Shown here piece by piece: positions 36,736 to 46,357 of a stretch of 64,000 nucleotides of DNA. Location of the stretch: contig JAHBXN010000001.1 of NCBI GenBank assembly GCA_019636475.1, positions 248,001 through 312,000 on the forward strand, read 5' to 3'. A program made the translations under genes and the position numbers. How positions within the stretch are numbered: position 1 is the stretch's first letter; each line of letters begins with the position of its first letter. The DNA is from Phycisphaerae bacterium. Lineage in GTDB: Bacteria > Planctomycetota > Phycisphaerae > UBA1845 > UTPLA1. The notes beneath the pieces are model-generated. The model was not told the origin of the DNA, searched no databases, and saw nothing but the letters and a program-made list of their open reading frames with translations.

Positions 36736-38022
36736 ATGGCGGCCACGATGTCAGGTCGGCTGCGTCAAATCCTCATTTCACTCGCGCCCGGAATACTCGT
36801 CGCCGCGACGGGAGTCGGTTCGGGCGATCTGATCACCGCGGCCTTTGCGGGTTCACGCGTCGGCGCAGGACTGGCGTGGGCGGCCGTCGTTGGCTCCGTG
36901 CTGAAATGGTTTCTCAATGAGGGCCTCGCCCGCTGGCAGATGGCGACGGAGACGACGCTGCTCGAAGGCTGGCATGAACAGCTCAGCAAATGGGTTCGCT
37001 ACGTTTTCTTCGGTTACCTGCTGATCTGGGCTTTCGTTACCGGTGGCGCGATGGTCAATGCATGCGGAGTCGCCGGGCTGGCGCTTTTTCCGATCGGCGA
37101 CGATCCCGCTCGCGCCAAGATCATCTGGGGAGTCGTTCACTCCATCGTCGGCCTGGTGTTCGTGCTGCTGGGCGGTTTCCGGCTGTTCGAACGCGTCATG
37201 GGCGTCTGCATCGGTGTCATGTTCGTGACCGTCCTGGTCACCGCGGCATTGATCATCATTCGGCGCGACGCTGCCGCGGACCTGGCCAGCTTGCAGTTCC
37301 CGACCGATCCTTCAGGCCGAAAGTGGCTGCTGGGCGTGCTCGGCGGTGTCGGCGGAACGGTGACACTGCTCTCCTACGGGTACTGGATTCGCGAAGAAGG
37401 CCGGCGCGGAGCGGATGGCGTGCGAGCCAGCCGCATCGATCTCGCGGCAGGCTATGCCATGACCGGGCTTTTCGGCGTGGCGATGATCCTGATCGGATCG
37501 CAGCTTTCGCTGTCCGGCGGGGGCGATTCAGTCGCACTGCAACTGGCTGAGCAGTTGCAGAATGCCGTCGGCACGGCAGGCCCCGTCTGTCGTTGGGTGT
37601 TCCTGATTGGTTTCTGGGGTGCGGTGTTCTCGAGCTTGCTCGGCGTCTGGCAGAGCACACCCTACTTCTTCACCGACCTCATCCTGCTCGGCCGTCGCCA
37701 CACGGCGCAGGAGCGGCGGATGATTGTTTATGACCGCACTACGACCTACCGCGTCTGCCTGGTGCTGATTTCGATTGTCCCGCTTATTCTACTGTGGCAG
37801 CCGTCTGCGACGATTCAACTCGCCTACACGGTCCTCGGCGCCTTCTTCATGCCGTTTCTCGCGCTGACACTGCTTCTGCTAAATAACAGCCGCGCGATCC
37901 CTCGCGAATTTCGCTCCGGGCACCTCACCAACGCCGCACTGGTCATCACGCTCTGCTTCTTTGGATATCAAGGCGGGCTCGAAATCTACGAAACGATCGT
38001 TCGCGCATCAACCGGTTCATGA
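36736..38022 (+). CDS. Nramp-related membrane transporter lacking the canonical metal-binding motifs
   Basis: 428 residues, about 11 membrane helices. The overall pattern is Nramp/SLC11: ISLAPGILVAATGVGSGDL in helix 1 and GVGGTVTLLSYGYWIREEG in the helix 6 region. Helix 1 carries GSGD where canonical Nramps have the metal-binding DPGN. Helix 6 carries SYGYW where MPH would be. The Asp, Asn, Met and His metal ligands are thus missing, so divalent-metal transport by the standard mechanism is doubtful. It may belong to a divergent Nramp-related clade. Another ATG lies four codons in. Confidence 0.78.
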   Translation: MAATMSGRLRQILISLAPGILVAATGVGSGDLITAAFAGSRVGAGLAWAAVVGSVLKWFLNEGLARWQMATETTLLEGWHEQLSKWVRYVFFGYLLIWAFVTGGAMVNACGVAGLALFPIGDDPARAKIIWGVVHSIVGLVFVLLGGFRLFERVMGVCIGVMFVTVLVTAALIIIRRDAAADLASLQFPTDPSGRKWLLGVLGGVGGTVTLLSYGYWIREEGRRGADGVRASRIDLAAGYAMTGLFGVAMILIGSQLSLSGGGDSVALQLAEQLQNAVGTAGPVCRWVFLIGFWGAVFSSLLGVWQSTPYFFTDLILLGRRHTAQERRMIVYDRTTTYRVCLVLISIVPLILLWQPSATIQLAYTVLGAFFMPFLALTLLLLNNSRAIPREFRSGHLTNAALVITLCFFGYQGGLEIYETIVRASTGS

Positions 38023-38056: not shown

Positions 38057-39292
38057 TCAACGCGCGCCTGGCGCATCCGCTTCGCCGGATTCCTTCGCGA
38101 CCCACGTCAGATGATAGTCCTTGTCCTCCAGTTCATGCGCGAGCTTCGTCAATTTCAACTGCTTATATGTATCGCACATGACCGCGAGTTCGCTCGTGCG
38201 ATCGTGTCCGATGCTCCGCTCATAGGTGCCGGGATGCGGCCCGTGAGGGATGCCCGCGGGATGCAGGCTGATGGATCCGCTGTCAATTCCGCGCCGGCTC
38301 GTGAAATTGCCGGCGACATAGAAAAGAATCTCGTCCATATGCACACTCGCATGGCCATAAGGACAGGGTATCGCCTTCACACCGTTACGGTCGTAGTAGT
38401 CCACCTTTCGCGGAACGAAGCTGCACACCACGAACTCATTGCCGGCAAAGGTGATGTGGGTCGTCGGCGGCAGATGCACGCTGGCCGTGCGCGGCTGATA
38501 GTCCTCGATATTGAAGGCCACGGGATAAACACTGCCGTCCCATCCCACCACCTCGTGAGGAAAGTGTTTGAACAAGTGCACGGTCAATGTGTCCTCGCGT
38601 TTCACCACAAGCTTGTACGGCGGCTTGCCGTGCGACGCCTCACTATACATCAGCAGCGATTCCGGTCCGCGAAAATCCCGATGGCAATAGGGTGCATAGT
38701 CTGTGATCTGACCGTGGGAATTACGAAACTCCTTGGGAATATCGATCCAGCCTCGCCCCTCAAACACGAGGTACTCAGGTGACTCGCCCCCCGTCCCGGT
38801 TGCATCCCATGCGATGCGATAAGGCGTGCCGCGCGGGATCAGCACATAGTCTCGCTCGCGAAACGGCGTAATACCAAAGATCGACTCAACGCGGCCGCTG
38901 CCCTTGTAGATGAAATAAAGTTCCTCTCCATCGCCGTTGCAGAAAAACCGACTCGACATCTGAGTCGGCTTGACCATGCAGATGTGGACGTCGCTGTTGT
39001 ACATCAGCACGCGGCGCGCATCGAGAAAATCACCCGACAGCTTCAGAGCCTGCGTCCTGACGTGCCGTCGATACAGCGGCTGCTCGTCAAGCGGTTCGAA
39101 CGGGCAGAACCCGTCGATCGAAAGCCGCTCCACCGCGTTTTCGTCGGTGGGTGGCGTGCGAAAATACAGCGTCGAGTACGGCCCTTCGAATCCCTGGCGT
39201 GTAAAACACTGCTCCATCAGCAGCTTGCCTTCGTCGTAGAAGCTGACGTGCTGCTTCGGCGGTATCTTTCCCAGACGCATATATTGAATCAT
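38057..39292 (-). CDS. hmgA: Homogentisate 1,2-dioxygenase
   Basis: Cleaves homogentisate to maleylacetoacetate in tyrosine and phenylalanine breakdown, using Fe(II). 411 residues, close to the family's 430-440. Iron ligands are recognisable in HPAGIPHGPHPGTYE (about 345-360) and in HMDEILFYVAGNF (about 318-330). The N-terminal cupin part holds ELYFIYKGSGRVESIFG. No other gene of the tyrosine route (hppD, fahA, maiA) is in the window, so it stands alone. It is divergent from the acyltransferase-like gene. Confidence 0.9.
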   Translation of the reverse strand: MIQYMRLGKIPPKQHVSFYDEGKLLMEQCFTRQGFEGPYSTLYFRTPPTDENAVERLSIDGFCPFEPLDEQPLYRRHVRTQALKLSGDFLDARRVLMYNSDVHICMVKPTQMSSRFFCNGDGEELYFIYKGSGRVESIFGITPFRERDYVLIPRGTPYRIAWDATGTGGESPEYLVFEGRGWIDIPKEFRNSHGQITDYAPYCHRDFRGPESLLMYSEASHGKPPYKLVVKREDTLTVHLFKHFPHEVVGWDGSVYPVAFNIEDYQPRTASVHLPPTTHITFAGNEFVVCSFVPRKVDYYDRNGVKAIPCPYGHASVHMDEILFYVAGNFTSRRGIDSGSISLHPAGIPHGPHPGTYERSIGHDRTSELAVMCDTYKQLKLTKLAHELEDKDYHLTWVAKESGEADAPGAR

Positions 39293-39494
39293 GAGGAACT
39301 CCGTACTGGATCAATTCCCTTTAGCCACACGAGCGGCAAAAAGCCCTTCGAGCCGAATGACCGCATTATAAGGCAATCACGCCAAATCACACGGCCCGCG
39401 CATCGTCGCTCGCCGCGAAACCGCTCCCCGCCGCATGGCGCTCACAATCCGCCACGTTGCATTTCCCGCGATGTCTTCCATAATCGCTTTCACG

Positions 39495-40874
39495 ATGGCC
39501 CAGCACTTCCGTCTCAATCCTTGTGATTACCTCTTCTGGGGTCAGCACCGAATGAATGCTCGGCGCGGCCAAGGCGGAAACGTCGCGTTCATGCTCATGG
39601 ATCTGGAGGGAGAACTGAGAGCGGACTGGCTGCGAGACGCCTTGGCTGCCGTTATCAAGGAGCACCCAGTGATTCTGGGCCGCTTTGATTGCACCCTCAT
39701 CACCGGGCGACCGATGTGGACCGTACATGCTCCCGCGCGTTCTGATCTTGATCGCGCGGTCGATCGCGCGTTTCGCCACGAAGACCTGCGAAATGATCCG
39801 CACTGGCGGGAAACGCTCGCGGAGCGCTCCGCGGTCGGAAACGTCACCAACTGGAATACAAACGCCGACCCGCTCGTTCGGTTGGAGCACTACGCCCTTC
39901 CGAACTACTCCGCTCGCCTGATCATCCGCTGGCCACATGCGCTGATGGACGCGGAAGGCGCGCAATGGTTTCTCGGCGAGTTGTCACGATGTGGAGCGGG
40001 TCAGTCGCCAAGGCCAGCATCCCTCGCCGACGATCACGAGATTATTGATCCGATCGCAGCACACGGCTTGCCGACCCGCTGTCGGCTGTTCGCACGCGGC
40101 GCGAGTTATCAACGCACCCACAGCAAATCCCGGATTCGCTTGATGCCGCCCGAATCTACGACCGGGCCTATCGATCACCGCGTGATTCATCGAAATCTGT
40201 CTGCGGAGGAAACACGTCGCGTGCAAGCCGCCGCCAGGCTCACAATGCCATCCGGCCCGCTCCTCTACGCAAGGCATCTTGCAGCCAGCATCGTTCGAGC
40301 GGTCCATCGATTGTACCTTCAGCGCGGCATCGAAACGGACGCCTACCTGATCACCCTGCCCATGCGCGTCGGCTCATCCGATCCGGCCGGCAAGCTCTTC
40401 AGCAGGCGACCCATGAACGGCAACTATCTTATCTCGCCAATGCTCTGCATCCCGCGCGGGATCGCCGCCGATCCGCAGGCCATCGGTGAGATGATCACAA
40501 ACCAGCTCACAAGTTACCACGAGCGCCGCGGCGACCTGCTGCAATGGACGATGATGTGGGCCGCATCGCTGATTCACGCATGGGTCTATGAGTTGGTGTT
40601 CGCTCTGCCATTCGGCGGAGGGAGTTTCGCGACAGGCAATTCGTTCTACGGCGAAATCGACTCGCCGGTCCGACGGATGGGGGACGCCACCGTCTCGAAT
40701 CTCTGGGGCGGCGGACCCAATACGACGCCACCCGGCTTGAATCCCGTCTTTTCGAGATTCGCAGATCGACTGAATCTGACGCTGACATACACTCGCCCGG
40801 CGATCTCGGATGCGACCGCCGCCGAATATGTTAAACTGATCGAATGCGAGATGACTGGCGAATCGTTGAAATGA
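39495..40874 (+). CDS. Condensation-domain / wax-ester-synthase-like acyltransferase
   Basis: About 459 residues from the ATG at 39495; ATGs at 39471 and 39435 extend it by 8 and 20 residues, none with a clear ribosome-binding site. The N-terminus FRLNPCDYLFW resembles the SPLDxxFL start of the superfamily. The catalytic-type motif is WPHALMDAEG (about residue 153), matching HHxxxDG with the first His replaced and the Gly shifted. The fold of two CAT-like lobes joined by GKLFSRRPMNGNYL and a late SNLWGGGPNT stretch is consistent. It likely transfers an acyl group to an alcohol or amine; the substrate is unknown. Confidence 0.65.
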   Translation: MAQHFRLNPCDYLFWGQHRMNARRGQGGNVAFMLMDLEGELRADWLRDALAAVIKEHPVILGRFDCTLITGRPMWTVHAPARSDLDRAVDRAFRHEDLRNDPHWRETLAERSAVGNVTNWNTNADPLVRLEHYALPNYSARLIIRWPHALMDAEGAQWFLGELSRCGAGQSPRPASLADDHEIIDPIAAHGLPTRCRLFARGASYQRTHSKSRIRLMPPESTTGPIDHRVIHRNLSAEETRRVQAAARLTMPSGPLLYARHLAASIVRAVHRLYLQRGIETDAYLITLPMRVGSSDPAGKLFSRRPMNGNYLISPMLCIPRGIAADPQAIGEMITNQLTSYHERRGDLLQWTMMWAASLIHAWVYELVFALPFGGGSFATGNSFYGEIDSPVRRMGDATVSNLWGGGPNTTPPGLNPVFSRFADRLNLTLTYTRPAISDATAAEYVKLIECEMTGESLK

Positions 40875-41027
40875 CAATTCCGATTCACCATCGCCCTTGG
40901 GGATGCCGGAGAATCGGCGAATGCCGCGGCAGACCGGCTCGCTCCGATGACTACGACGTACGAAGATGGGTCAGAGGACCCGAATGTCGCGGCTCAAACC
41001 AGGGCTCACATTTCGAATCGCAGGCAT

Positions 41028-42383
41028 ATGTCGCTGTCGATTATTAATGCCACGCTCTTCCACCTTGATCCAGTGAGGATCGAATGCGGTGCAATTCGCG
41101 CCGTCGGCAATCGAATTGATGCCGCCGGAACGGGCGTCACCGCGCAACCCGGCGACGACGTCATCGACGCCGGCGGAGCGGTCGTCCTGCCGGGGCTTGT
41201 CAATGGGCACACCCATCTCTACTCCGCGCTGGCCGCGGGGATGCCCATGCCGCCGATCGCACCCGCCGACTTCCACGAGATTCTGAAGTTCATCTGGTGG
41301 CGGCTTGACCGCGCGATGGATGCCGAATCGATCGAAGTCTCCGCGCGAATCGGCGCGATGGACGCAATGGCTTGCGGCACCACCACCCTCATTGATCATC
41401 ACGCCTCGCCGAACCACATCGATGGATCCCTCGATCTGCTTGAGCGCGGCATCGCTGAAGTCGGCCTCCGCGCCATTCTCTGTTACGAGGTCACCGATCG
41501 TAACGGACCTGCCCGCTTCGAGGCCGGGCTCTTCGAAAATCGCCGCTATCTGGACAAGCTTCGACTGAACGACCCCAATGGCCGATTCGGCGCGATGGTC
41601 GGTGCACATGCCGCTTTCACGCTATCGGACAAGTCATTGCTGGCATGTGCCGGCCTCGCGGAGGAATACAGATCCGGGCTGCATATTCATGTCGCCGAAG
41701 ACCCGTGCGATGACAAGATTTGCCGACAAATCCACGGCCTGCCGCTTCTCGACCGGCTTCGGAATTGCGGACTGTTGCCGCCTGGCGAGGCTGCCGCGGA
41801 CAGCCTGATCGCGCGATCCATTCTCGGCCACGGCACCCATCTTTCGCCGGCGGATGCCGCGCGTCTGTCATCCATCGCCGCGGGAATAGCCCATAACCCG
41901 CGATCCAATATGAACAACGCCGTGGGCTACGCCCCCATCCGCCACATGACCCGCGTCATGCTCGGAACCGATGGCATTGGCGGCGACATGTTCAACGAAT
42001 GCAGAACCGCGTGGTTCAAGTATCGCGACTCGTGCGCGAACGGTGACGCGGGACTCGCACCGGCACGATTCCTCGACATGCTCGCCCACAATGCACGGGT
42101 CGCCAGCGGGGTTCTCGGCGTGACGCTTGGCCGGTTGGAAGCCGGAGCGGCTGCCGATCTGATCCTGACGAACTACGTACCCGCGACGCCGCTATTGTCG
42201 GAGAATGCGCCGGCCCACTTCATCTTCGCGATGGGTCCGCAGCATATCGATTCGGTCTTCATCGACGGGGAAGCGGTCTTTCGCGACCGGACGGCCACCC
42301 GTGTCAATGCACGCGCGGCCAGAGAACACGCCGCCCACTGCGCCGCCGGGCTTTGGGACCGAATGCAACAATTGACCGCCTGA
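41028..42383 (+). CDS. ssnA: SsnA-type amidohydrolase / aminohydrolase
   Basis: 451 residues from the ATG at 41028. Metal-dependent amidohydrolase: HTH in VNGHTHLYSAL (about 58-60), HHASPNH near 122, HVAEDPCDD near 221, and HNPRSNMNNAVGYAP and LGTDGIGGDMF (the catalytic Asp) near 290-320. The pattern of the last two motifs is that of SsnA and related purine-ring deaminases. In E. coli ssnA is part of the yge/xdh purine cluster. It faces the carbamate kinase operon tail to tail (120 bases). Confidence 0.82.
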   Translation: MSLSIINATLFHLDPVRIECGAIRAVGNRIDAAGTGVTAQPGDDVIDAGGAVVLPGLVNGHTHLYSALAAGMPMPPIAPADFHEILKFIWWRLDRAMDAESIEVSARIGAMDAMACGTTTLIDHHASPNHIDGSLDLLERGIAEVGLRAILCYEVTDRNGPARFEAGLFENRRYLDKLRLNDPNGRFGAMVGAHAAFTLSDKSLLACAGLAEEYRSGLHIHVAEDPCDDKICRQIHGLPLLDRLRNCGLLPPGEAAADSLIARSILGHGTHLSPADAARLSSIAAGIAHNPRSNMNNAVGYAPIRHMTRVMLGTDGIGGDMFNECRTAWFKYRDSCANGDAGLAPARFLDMLAHNARVASGVLGVTLGRLEAGAAADLILTNYVPATPLLSENAPAHFIFAMGPQHIDSVFIDGEAVFRDRTATRVNARAAREHAAHCAAGLWDRMQQLTA

Positions 42384-42503
42384 GCCTAATCCTGCGATCG
42401 TCGGGCTCCGGCGATTCCGGTTTGAGACCTCTCGCCGAAATAAATCCGGCCGGGCGCCTCATTCGAGCGGCGATTCATAACCACGTCAGCTTCGGCGAGC
42501 GCC

Positions 42504-43448
42504 TTACAACGTGATCGTCGTGCCGGTTTCGCCCGCCAGCGCGGCAGGAACCTTGTCCAGATCGGCAATGACGGCACGCGCCGTTGGATCTCCGCGATCC
42601 TTTAGAAACTGCACCGCGGCCTGAATCTTGGGCAGCATCGAACCGGCCGGAAATTGCCGGTCGGCGATGTGCCCTTCGATCTCCGCGACGCGCACATGGG
42701 TCAGTCCCCGCTGATCCGGCTTTCCGTAATTCACATACACATGATCGACGGCCGTGACGAGAACCAGTACGTCCGCCTCAACAGATGCCGCTATTATGGC
42801 ACTCGTGAAGTCCTTGTCGATCACGGCTTCCACGCCGTGTCGCTCCCCTTTTTCATTGATGATGACCGGGATGCCGCCCCCGCCCCCCGCGATGATTAGC
42901 TCGCCGGCTGCGACCAGCTTCTTGATCGTGTCGATGCACTCTACCGCCACAGGCTTCGGCGACGCCACGACCCGCCGCCAGCCTCGACCGGCGTCCTCAA
43001 CGATTTTCCAGCCGTCGCGCTCGGCATGCTGCCGCGCGCGCTCCTCCGAAAGAAACGGGCCGATCGGCTTGGTCGGATTGGCGAATGCCGGATCATCCGC
43101 ATCGACAATGACCGGCGTGACGATTGCAATGCACTCACGGTCACGCCCCCGATTGTGCATCTCGTTGCGCCAGGTCTGACTGATCATGTAGCCCATGCCC
43201 GCCTGCGTGTCCGCGACGGCCAGACCCAGGTCGATCGGATAGACCTCGCCGGAGGAAATCTCCACGCGGCGCATGATCGAACCGACCTGCGGTCCGTTCC
43301 CGTGAGTCACGGTCACCTGACATCCCTGGAAGACTAGGTCCGCGAGTGTTCGGGCGACGAGGCGACTGCGGGCAAACTGCTCGCCAATGTCACCACGCCC
43401 CCCCGGAGCGATCAGCGCATTGCCGCCGATGGCGACGACGGTTTTCAT
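42504..43448 (-). CDS. arcC: Carbamate kinase
   Basis: 314 residues. Makes ATP from carbamoyl phosphate and ADP. Visible motifs are VVAIGGNAL at the N-terminus, THGNGPQVGSI near 49, IAGGGGGIPVI near 190, and VIDKDFTSAIIA near 212, with TAVDHVYVNYG near 235. It is the E. coli YqeA/ArcC fold. It follows the YgeW-type carbamoyltransferase by 92 bases in the same direction, which together make ATP from a carbamoylated substrate. Confidence 0.95.
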   Translation of the reverse strand: MKTVVAIGGNALIAPGGRGDIGEQFARSRLVARTLADLVFQGCQVTVTHGNGPQVGSIMRRVEISSGEVYPIDLGLAVADTQAGMGYMISQTWRNEMHNRGRDRECIAIVTPVIVDADDPAFANPTKPIGPFLSEERARQHAERDGWKIVEDAGRGWRRVVASPKPVAVECIDTIKKLVAAGELIIAGGGGGIPVIINEKGERHGVEAVIDKDFTSAIIAASVEADVLVLVTAVDHVYVNYGKPDQRGLTHVRVAEIEGHIADRQFPAGSMLPKIQAAVQFLKDRGDPTARAVIADLDKVPAALAGETGTTITL

Positions 43449-43540
43449 TTGGACGTTCCACCTGACCTGGTTGAGAAAATCGGCTCTACGTAGAAGATCT
43501 TGAGGGCGACCTCATCCCGCGGCTCCCGCGCACCACACGC

Positions 43541-44578
43541 TTACTTGAACGGCCGCTCTCGCATCGTCGACGCCATGATTGCCTTCGCCGTATGCAAGCG
43601 GTTTTCCGCCTCCTGAAAGACCACGGACTGCGGACCATCAATCACGGCATCCGTCACCTCGGCGCCGCGATCGGCCGGCAGGCAGTGCATGTATATCGCG
43701 TTGCTTCGCGCAAGTCTCATTCGCTCCGAGTTGCAGATCCACGGCTTGTACTTCGCATTCATCGAAAGCATCCGTTCCTCGATCTGCTTCATCTGGGCGT
43801 CGCTCCGCGCGTCTCGTCGCTCCATCATCAGGTCGTACGGACCCCAGCTCTTGGGATACACGATGTCCGCGTTCTTGAACGCGTCGTCCATGTTCTCGAC
43901 GACCTCGAACTTCGTCCCGGCCGCCCTGGCGTTTTCTCGTGCGGCTTTCATGCACTTGTCCATCAGCCGATACTCCGGCGGATGGGCGAGTGTCACGTCC
44001 ATGCCGAATCGCGTCATCAGCGTGATCAAACCCTGAGGCACGGAGAGCGGCTTGGCATAGGACGGTGAATATGCCCAGCTGACCGCGATCTTTCGACCAC
44101 GCAGGTCGTCTCCGAAAACCTCACGGATCGTCATGATATCGGCAAGCGTCTGCGTCGGATGATCGATGTCGCATTGCATGTTCATGACGGGAACTTCCGT
44201 CGCCGCCGCCACATCGCGCATGTATTTATTGCCTTCGTCCAGAATCAGATCATGGCGAATTGCAATGCCGTGTCCCATCGATCCAAGGATCAGTCCGGTG
44301 TCCTTCGCTGTCTCGCCGTGGGCGATCTGCGTGACCTTGCTATCCAGGAAATGCGCGTGAGCGCCGAGCTGAGTCGCTCCGGCCTCGAAGGCGTTTCGCG
44401 TGCGGGTGCTGTTATCGAAAAAGAGCAGGAACACAGTCTGATGGGGTAACAGGATCGTCGGTTCGCCGCGATGAAATCTCGCCTTCAGATCCTTCGCGAC
44501 TTCGAGCAGATGGTTGAGTTCCGCCAGCGTAAAATCCTGCGTCTCGATGTAGTCGCGGCCTTTGAGATTGATCGCCAT
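43541..44578 (-). CDS. ygeW: YgeW-type (knotted) carbamoyltransferase
   Basis: 345 residues from ATG 44578. Carbamoyl-phosphate site NSTRTRNAFEAG near 56 and the HCLPAD motif near 303. The segments IAHGETAKDT, NMQCDIDHPTQTLADI and VSWAYSPSYAKPLSVPQG match E. coli YgeW closely, together with MTRFGMDVTLAHPPEY and DIVYPKSWGPYD. This puts it in the knotted carbamoyltransferase group rather than ordinary ornithine carbamoyltransferase. In the purine-ureide pathway YgeW phosphorolyses a diureido compound. It lies between the symporter and the kinase. Confidence 0.88.
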   Translation of the reverse strand: MAINLKGRDYIETQDFTLAELNHLLEVAKDLKARFHRGEPTILLPHQTVFLLFFDNSTRTRNAFEAGATQLGAHAHFLDSKVTQIAHGETAKDTGLILGSMGHGIAIRHDLILDEGNKYMRDVAAATEVPVMNMQCDIDHPTQTLADIMTIREVFGDDLRGRKIAVSWAYSPSYAKPLSVPQGLITLMTRFGMDVTLAHPPEYRLMDKCMKAARENARAAGTKFEVVENMDDAFKNADIVYPKSWGPYDLMMERRDARSDAQMKQIEERMLSMNAKYKPWICNSERMRLARSNAIYMHCLPADRGAEVTDAVIDGPQSVVFQEAENRLHTAKAIMASTMRERPFK

Positions 44579-44626
44579 GTGGTTCGGTCTCCCGTCGATG
44601 GTTCGTCCGTCGTTCAAAACGCGGCA

Positions 44627-46357
44627 TTATACCGACCCGTTTTTTCCGCGTCGCGGGTGGCCCAGCACCCATCCCACGAAGACCGTCACAACCGTCCCCA
44701 CTGGAAAACCCCAGAACGGATGAGCATAGACCGGACTGCCGTCAATCCCCTTCCCGGCGGCCACATGATGCAGCACCAGAACCAGCACCGAGGTCAACGA
44801 GATGCACCCGACCCGGGACAGATCATCGCGAAAACGCCGAACCGCAAGCAACAGCGCCGACGAACATCCCAGCCACACCAGACCGTCCGACCAGGCGATA
44901 CGGAAATCGCCGATGATCCACGGAGTTGAATGCACCACCAGACCGAACACCGACAGTACCGACATCGCCACCGCCCAGACCAACCCCCGGTCATCCCTGT
45001 TCAGCGGCAGAAACGCCAGCAGAAAGATCCCCAGCAGCGGCCCATACGTGAAGGCCACCAGCCCAAGCACCAGTTCGATCACGCTTTCAAACTGGTTGCG
45101 AATCGGAATGCACGCCGTTGCCATCAGACACAACGTGACACCCCAGATTACAACAAGCGCCTTCGATAGCCCGATGTCACTCGGCGCACGACCTCGAATC
45201 AGCCCGATGCGACGAGCAACTTGTATCGCACGCTGCTTGAACGCGCTGACCGTCGTCTGCGACAGCGCGGCCAGCGCCGAATCCAGCGAGGAGATTGCCG
45301 CCGCCAGGATCGCAGCGACGATGATCGCGCGGATGCCATGAGGCATCTGACGCGCGATGAAATATGGAAGGATATTCGTCGCCTCTTTCGCCATCAACGC
45401 CGCCGCATCGGCCGGCAATGGATGATGCTGGTAGTACGCATAAATGGCGACACCAACGAGGAGCATCAGCAGCGCGATCAACTGCCCCGCACTGCTCACG
45501 ATAATCGCCAGCCTCGCTTGCGAGCGAGTCTTACAGCAGAACATTCGCTGAGCCATGACCTGATCCAGCCCAAGCGCGGCCAGATTCAGAAATGGCATCG
45601 CGATCAGGCCCGTCCAAAGTGTCAGTCCCAGCGTCAGATCCGCCCGCGTGTCCAGCAACCTCAGCTTCCCGGCGTCATTGGCGATTCGAACAACCTCATC
45701 CACGCCACCCTCCACCGCCGAGACGCTGTAGAAAAGTGCAGCCATCGCCCCGAGAATCAGAACGCCGAACTGAATCAAATCGGTCCAGATGACCGTCGTG
45801 ATGCCGCCCAGAAGAGTCCATCCGATCGCGACCACGCCGATGATCCAGATCGAAGCGATGAATTCAATCTGGGCGACGTTATGCAGAATAAAAGCCGCGA
45901 CATACACGCGCGCTCCCTGTCCCAGCACCCCCCCGACAAAGAACAACAGCGTCGTCATGGTCTTGACGCGCGGACCAAGTCGCGCGCCCATGTAGTCGTA
46001 TGGACTGTAAATCTCCTCGTCGAAATAGCGCGGCACGAAAAATAGGCCGATGATCACCCGCGCCAGGATCGCCCCCAGTCCCAGTTGAAGATAGGTCAGA
46101 TCACCCCCCGCCGCGAAACTCGTCGCCGGCACCGCGATAAACGTTGCGGCCGAGATCTCCGTGGCAATGATCGATCCGCAAATCGCCCACCACGGAAGCT
46201 TCCTCCCACCCAGGAAAAACTCCCGAATCGTGGTCTGCTTACCGGACAGTCGCGCGCCCAGCAGGGTCGTCAGCGCGAGGTAGCCCGCGATGACCAGCCA
46301 GTCTGTCCATCCGAATGCAGTCGTCGGCATCCCTTCCGAGAGCATCATGACCGGCAA
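44627..46357 (-). CDS. Sodium:solute symporter family protein
   Basis: 576 residues, about 13-14 membrane helices of the SSS (LeuT-fold) family. Helix 1 region is WTDWLVIAGYLALTTLLG, followed by FFLGGRKLPWWAICGSIIATEISAATFIAVP, the conserved sodium-binding segment, and GGITTVIWTDLIQFGVL. Late helices run to GWVLGHPRRG. First gene of an operon with ygeW and arcC (48 bases to ygeW). Substrate is unknown; a ureido or purine compound is inferred from its neighbours. Starts at residues 4, 5 and 10 are also possible. Confidence 0.85.
   Translation of the reverse strand: MPVMMLSEGMPTTAFGWTDWLVIAGYLALTTLLGARLSGKQTTIREFFLGGRKLPWWAICGSIIATEISAATFIAVPATSFAAGGDLTYLQLGLGAILARVIIGLFFVPRYFDEEIYSPYDYMGARLGPRVKTMTTLLFFVGGVLGQGARVYVAAFILHNVAQIEFIASIWIIGVVAIGWTLLGGITTVIWTDLIQFGVLILGAMAALFYSVSAVEGGVDEVVRIANDAGKLRLLDTRADLTLGLTLWTGLIAMPFLNLAALGLDQVMAQRMFCCKTRSQARLAIIVSSAGQLIALLMLLVGVAIYAYYQHHPLPADAAALMAKEATNILPYFIARQMPHGIRAIIVAAILAAAISSLDSALAALSQTTVSAFKQRAIQVARRIGLIRGRAPSDIGLSKALVVIWGVTLCLMATACIPIRNQFESVIELVLGLVAFTYGPLLGIFLLAFLPLNRDDRGLVWAVAMSVLSVFGLVVHSTPWIIGDFRIAWSDGLVWLGCSSALLLAVRRFRDDLSRVGCISLTSVLVLVLHHVAAGKGIDGSPVYAHPFWGFPVGTVVTVFVGWVLGHPRRGKNGSV

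Follow-up and report, generated by a model that had tools for sequence, protein, structure and literature searches.

A carbamoyltransferase and SsnA gene module of a planctomycete as a probable part of a dispersed, selenium-linked reductive urate pathway

A stretch of 64,000 nucleotides from the genome of a Phycisphaerae bacterium (GCA_019636475.1; contig 1, positions 248001-312000; hereafter the window) was examined for a module of four genes encoding a sodium:solute symporter, a YgeW-like carbamoyltransferase, a carbamate kinase and an SsnA-like aminohydrolase. The assembly totals 4.41 Mb in 18 contigs, with 95% completeness and 0.4% contamination. We conclude that the window probably contributes two steps, the SsnA reaction and the one that yields energy, to a dispersed, selenium-linked pathway for the anaerobic, reductive degradation of urate (purine), and its best reading is as a dispersed variant of the reductive urate pathway described in 2025. 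Gene presence, family placement, pocket conservation and co-occurrence were computed; we infer every reaction, its direction and the role of the transporter.

Three of the genes lie on the minus strand in the order symporter (44627-46357), YgeW-like gene (43541-44578) and carbamate kinase (42504-43448), with gaps of ~48 bp and 92 bp, and the plus-strand ssnA-like gene (41028-42383) converges on the kinase across ~120 bp. The carbamoyltransferase comprises 345 aa from an ATG that is common to its homologues and has a GGGAG stretch ahead of it, or 358 aa from an upstream TTG at 44617. The kinase has 314 aa and the aminohydrolase 451 aa, the latter from a likely ATG at 41028 within a longer open reading frame (40947-42383). 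Protein-family E-values for the four genes range from 1e-31 to 1e-117, which excludes chance matches, and coordinates, strands and family matches all agree with the arrangement claimed in the original prediction for this DNA.

NCBIfam models for YgeW gave the carbamoyltransferase its best scores (318 bits against a cut-off of 453, and 297 against 500), followed by ornithine carbamoyltransferase (OTC) models at 241 bits and lower, and its best sequence match in the PDB was Escherichia coli YgeW (3q98). The sub-cut-off YgeW score is attributable to missing E. coli-type loops and end helices. A phylogenetic tree of 52 proteins, including OTC, putrescine carbamoyltransferase (PTC) and acetylornithine carbamoyltransferase (AOTC) but leaving out succinylornithine carbamoyltransferase (SOTC) sequences, united all YgeW-like rows with 99/98 support, separate from OTC, PTC and AOTC, and within this group the window enzyme stood on a branch, also with 99/98 support, that included Phycisphaerae, Sumerlaeota and canonical YgeW. 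The original prediction had named grouping with ornithine, putrescine or acetylornithine types as its refuting outcome; approximately unbiased (AU) tests of that preset comparison, made with an 11-row window set chosen after the tree had been viewed and with long branches present, rejected joining the window branch to OTC/PTC (p 0.005) or to AOTC (p 0.009), and the proposed YgeW affinity was upheld. Ordinary OTC, PTC or AOTC identity was ruled out on trees, AU tests and pocket residues. Judged from its sequence, the window enzyme is a member of a short-form YgeW clade lying outside the curated YgeW equivalog, and its nearest relatives are found in Planctomycetota metagenome-assembled genomes (MAGs). 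In this tree the loop-extended YgeW of E. coli seems to have originated inside the short-form clade. Family scores of short enzymes from Desulfosporosinus and genome G005 favour OTC or AOTC over YgeW, whereas the tree joins them to YgeW, so that family models alone would misname them. Another OTC-like gene is present on contig 3 of the planctomycete genome.

The ligand and pocket residues of E. coli YgeW number nine (R122 and the second-substrate residues Q98, D124, Q160, S200, K203, K270, D334 and E344; PMC4581275), and all nine are identical in the window enzyme (in sequence order Q84, R108, D110, Q135, S173, K176, K243, D303 and E307), with the second-substrate set kept in full. The K176 and K243 sites are occupied by Asp in the E. 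coli OTC, P. furiosus OTC and E. faecalis PTC rows, and the Q160 equivalent is Gln in the window enzyme but Glu in the AOTC row. Carbamoyl phosphate-binding motifs are present (STRT 57-60, the conserved Arg R108, HPTQ 140-143 and HCLP 298-301), as is the proline-rich loop marking knotted transcarbamylases (AYSPSYAKPLSVPQG). Compared with E. coli YgeW, the 120's loop is 11 residues short and the extra N- and C-terminal helices and the insert after HCLPAD are missing; the C-terminal motif EAENRLHTAKA is OTC/AOTC-like. An AlphaFold model based on 22 sequences (mean predicted local distance difference test score, pLDDT, 90.8; predicted template modelling score, pTM, 0.90) has two extra 240's-loop helices (248-256 and 260-275), three residues shorter than in E. 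coli. Compared with the PDB, the model was closest to E. faecalis YgeW (2yfk; Z 42.5, root-mean-square deviation 1.8 over 331 residues), followed by AOTC (Z 40.6) and E. coli YgeW (Z 39.8), with OTC also among the nearest folds after YgeW; as the AOTC value is close to or above those of YgeW structures, fold ranking alone does not split the two families.

The kinase passed the NCBIfam carbamate kinase model NF009007 (333 bits, cut-off 266), scored just under the cut-off of arcC (TIGR00746, 341 against 358) and far under that of the YqeA model (NF006926, 218 against 416), and its best solved structures are carbamate kinases. These family scores rule out YqeA identity and give an ArcC-type enzyme in place of the YqeA-like kinase first proposed, with a predicted reaction of carbamoyl phosphate and ADP to ATP. 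The kinase family is present in 27 of 36 clustered YgeW-like loci (window counted), nearly always immediately 3' of YgeW. In a tree, the SsnA-like protein falls inside the SsnA clade (100/100) and shares a branch with its E. coli counterpart (100/99), separate from the deaminases of guanine and 8-oxoguanine; with 38% identity to E. coli SsnA and conserved His/Asp residues, it is predicted to open the ring of dihydro-yanthine. The five nearest genomes carry orthologues (55-59% identity) at sites away from YgeW. The symporter is a generic member of the SSS family (PF00474, 107 bits; TIGR00813, 174 bits against a cut-off of 184) whose nearest solved relatives, a bacterial sodium:solute symporter (5nv9), SMCT1 and the iodide cotransporter, gave no assignable substrate in the PDB comparison; uptake of the pathway substrate is its predicted role. 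It is found near YgeW in just one other genome (locus L023), ~7 kb away.

The original prediction listed ygeX, ygeY, hydA, ygfK and xdhD as missing, which is correct for the window but not genome-wide, as most were found on other contigs. On the strength of these whole-genome searches we reject its suggestion of a reduced route: besides YgeY, the genome encodes a selenium-dependent xanthine dehydrogenase, a YgfK-like reductase and a hydantoinase, leaving YgeX as the one partner that the searches did not find. YgeY (contig 6, 325028-326212) scored 538 bits with TIGR03526 (cut-off 321.5) and shares 80% identity with the YgeY located immediately ahead of YgeW in L023. A fused selenium-dependent xanthine dehydrogenase (contig 4, 60243-62930; TIGR03311, 924 bits, cut-off 830) adjoins an XdhC-type factor and a MobA-like protein; it reached 205 bits with the E. 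coli XdhD model (TIGR03313, cut-off 1102) and is of the TIGR03311 type that is linked to YgeY-YgeW in relatives. The same contig encodes a short YgfK-like protein of 688 aa (269524-271233) that matches positions 5-398 of TIGR03315 (379 bits, cut-off 835) and a C-terminal ferredoxin stretch, and in which Fer4_20 and Pyr_redox_2, located at 453-532 and 552-839 of E. coli YgfK, were not detected. A hydantoinase/dihydropyrimidinase is encoded on contig 8 (55960-57324; 448 bits, cut-off 393). On contig 5 (L071 6755-12175, minus strand), an 8-oxoguanine deaminase (577 bits against 532) lies beside a second, multi-subunit xanthine dehydrogenase, and the pair is a possible source of urate.

In relatives, several of these genes are linked, although the examples are selected cases: genomes reached through the enzyme search were chosen for carrying the enzyme, and linkage there shows association, not function. 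The L023 enzyme is 86% identical to that of the window and has the same pilM-type neighbours, in a YgeY-YgeW arrangement with a kinase 0.7 kb on. At four further loci (L027, L028, L029 and L031) the dehydrogenase is divergent from YgeY-YgeW-kinase, and the L028 copy, from a member of the Phycisphaerae, passes TIGR03311 with 980 bits. One planctomycete carries SsnA-YgeY-YgeW-kinase (L072) and another YgfK-like-kinase-YgeW-YgeY-like (L081), and SsnA adjoins a YgfK-like gene in L124, L125 and L142. Both YgeW and SsnA are kept in nearby MAGs at 55-88% identity.

Co-occurrence was assessed across 294 genomes of the phylum, counting YgeW and SsnA matches at E 1e-60 or better and YgeY matches over the cut-off. 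YgeW was found in 18 genomes and YgeY in 15, with both in 12 and neither in 273 (Fisher p 1e-14); YgeW and SsnA occurred together in 14, YgeW only in four, SsnA only in 16 and neither in 260 (p 1e-12), p-values that treat related genomes as independent and rest on a YgeW count mixing long and short forms. Co-occurrence in related genomes, whose absence the original prediction had named as refuting, was found for YgeW with SsnA and also with YgeY. SelD was detected in 18/18 YgeW-bearing genomes of the phylum versus 0/12 same-class genomes without YgeW, groups that differ in taxonomy, and in eight of the ten genomes reached through loci. In the planctomycete itself selD lies on contig 2 (L135 8580-9560, minus strand), scores over the cut-off and has an in-frame TGA in the context CAG-U-AGK, so that SelD is a predicted selenoprotein. 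This codon implies selenocysteine decoding in the organism, and SelD is probably not an orphan; a tRNA was not found around selD.

The E. coli route proceeds from urate to yanthine (XdhD), through dearomatisation (YgfK), ring opening (SsnA) and hydantoin opening (HyuA), to phosphorolysis of one ureido group (YgeW), removal of the other (YgeY) and conversion of 2,3-diaminopropionate to pyruvate (YgeX; PMC12507026), the ureido group taken by YgeW being disputed between two 2025 studies (PMC12990295). By analogy, the selenium-dependent dehydrogenase on contig 4 would convert urate to yanthine, which the short YgfK-like flavin/iron-sulfur protein would dearomatise. Its electron donor is probably ferredoxin, since the NAD(P)H-FAD module is missing. 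The window SsnA would then open the six-membered ring and, with more uncertainty, the contig 8 hydantoinase would yield 2,3-diureidopropionate. Short-form YgeW may phosphorolyse one ureido group of this compound to carbamoyl phosphate, from which the kinase would form ATP, and YgeY would take off the second ureido group. The initial suggestion that YgeW and the kinase obtain ATP from a diureido compound thereby gains support by inference.

The planctomycete genome holds homologues of SsnA, YgeW, carbamate kinase and YgeY, and candidate counterparts of XdhD, YgfK (in part) and HyuA, of the E. coli reductive uric acid pathway (xdhD-ygfM, ygfK, ssnA, hyuA, ygeW, yqeA, ygeY, ygeX; Li et al. 2025, PMC12507026), with identical YgeW pocket residues. 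In contrast to E. coli, the planctomycete genes are dispersed, YgeW is short, the kinase is ArcC-type rather than YqeA-type and YgeX was not found; YgfK lacks Fer4_20 and Pyr_redox, the dehydrogenase is of the TIGR03311 type with no YgfM beside it, and YgeW adjoins a sodium symporter, whereas the E. coli cluster holds the xanthine permease xanQ. The original comparison with the yge/xdh urate cluster of E. coli holds for YgeW, SsnA and the genome partners but not for YqeA. The reductase and dehydrogenase of the C. difficile variant (UacX, UacY) also lack FAD modules and probably use ferredoxin (PMC12507026); the reductase without an FAD module and the dehydrogenase without YgfM are shared, and this lack in the YgfK-derived protein points to a ferredoxin-type variant. 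The planctomycete reductase is, however, YgfK-derived rather than UacX, and ureido removal would rely on YgeW and the kinase instead of hydrolysis by UacY. The yge/xdh clusters of Desulfosporosinus (L038-L056) also have a short YgeW (~46% identical) followed by carbamate kinase, along with ygeY, hyuA and xdh. They differ in gathering a nearly full gene set in a single cluster, most of them containing ygeX and ygeV as well, and their enzyme lacks the D124-equivalent residue and forms a separate branch. The genome also resembles the selenium-dependent molybdenum hydroxylase set of Haft and Self (2008, PMC2276186) in SelD, the selenium-dependent xanthine dehydrogenase, an XdhC-type maturation factor, YgeW, YgeY and SsnA, but neither of its accessory-protein markers, TIGR03309 (YqeB) and TIGR03310 (YgfJ), was recognised in the genes flanking the dehydrogenase.

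Several observations weigh against placing the module in a urate pathway. The window enzyme misses the curated YgeW cut-offs (TIGR03316 / NF005538 equivalogs), and the SsnA-like protein those of NF005540/TIGR03314 (391 bits against 444 and 366 against 455.5). To our knowledge, no activity has been demonstrated for any short-form YgeW. The pathway genes occupy four contigs or more, and the FAD subunit YgfM was not recognised beside the contig 4 dehydrogenase. The contig 8 hydantoinase, which could serve pyrimidine breakdown, shares just 37% identity with the cluster type. In Sumerlaeota G297 and G298, selD was not found despite the presence of YgeW and SsnA. YgeX had no match in this genome at E 1e-15 to the Desulfosporosinus protein, an absence that is not proven as the assembly is 95% complete; the same search did not find it in 15/17 other YgeW-bearing genomes. 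Two pyridoxal phosphate (PLP) enzymes (clusters c12 and c20) are paired close to YgeW/SsnA in several genomes and could replace YgeX in some. PLP-dependent enzymes resembling cysteine synthase and threonine synthase lie in such a position at L032 (5104-6564) and L034 (4373-5614), both on the plus strand, and at L036, L043 and L045; the stretches examined for these five contain no ygeX, and the enzymes are candidates to replace it.

The missing YgeX and the differing loops make one alternative a serious one, in which a knotted carbamoyltransferase acts on some other ureido compound (a carbamoyl amino acid derived from a hydantoin or a pyrimidine, for example) and makes up, together with the kinase and symporter, a fermentation module in its own right that merely looks like the urate pathway. 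The short 120's loop, the lack of end helices and of the insert after HCLPAD, the dihydropyrimidinase-like hydantoinase and the symporter without an assignable substrate would all fit such a module, but it leaves the identity of all nine YgeW residues, the linkage of YgeY, SsnA and the selenium-dependent dehydrogenase to the same short clade in several relatives and the co-occurrence with YgeY and SsnA to be accounted for, and we consider it unlikely. That the genes persist as a decaying or partial remnant after a working urate pathway was lost is very unlikely: scattered genes, the failure to find YgeX and the lack of YgeW and YgeY in all 20 same-class genomes listed (0/20) are in line with decay, yet the frames are intact, catalytic residues are conserved, SelD retains its selenocysteine codon and YgeW and SsnA persist in the nearby MAGs. 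Least probable of all is an OTC-, PTC- or AOTC-type enzyme serving with the kinase in an ATP module of arginine deiminase or agmatine type, or in arginine synthesis, since the residual OTC score, the C-terminal motif and the nearness of the AOTC and OTC folds are opposed by the AU tests, by Lys in place of the OTC/PTC Asp and Gln in place of the AOTC Glu, by the OTC-like gene on contig 3 and by the finding of no arginine or agmatine deiminase among the scanned neighbour genes.

Directly upstream of ssnA, a plus-strand gene (39435-40874) encodes a 479-aa protein that matches no Pfam or NCBIfam family and, among PDB entries, gave no more than a marginal hit to a condensation domain (E 6e-4). It occurs with SsnA in the same order in the two nearest genomes, G294 (L137) and G295 (L136), at 35-42% identity, and is a possible module member; its sequence HALMDAEG resembles the HHxxxDG acyltransferase motif. 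Also near the module are an Nramp-family divalent metal transporter (36736-38022, plus strand; 154 bits, cut-off 50) and a homogentisate 1,2-dioxygenase-like protein (38057-39292, minus strand), the latter far below its curated cut-off (48 bits against 510).

The reductive urate pathway was elucidated in gut bacteria, and a survey of SsnA (PMC12507026) names Pseudomonadota, Bacillota, Chloroflexota, Actinomycetota, Spirochaetota and Elusimicrobiota, with Planctomycetota, Sumerlaeota and Zixibacteria unnamed. No literature linking planctomycetes to the pathway was found among open-access papers, which is not proof of absence. A broader and more doubtful possibility, which we put forward tentatively, is that planctomycetes and Sumerlaeota of the environment use a form of the pathway that depends on selenium and ferredoxin, with dispersed genes, an ancestral-form short YgeW and an ArcC-type kinase for ATP, ending in a use of 2,3-diaminopropionate other than its conversion to pyruvate by YgeX. 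If the dispersed urate pathway proposed here is real, it also runs in environmental bacteria whose genes are unclustered, and surveys based on gene clusters would miss such bacteria.

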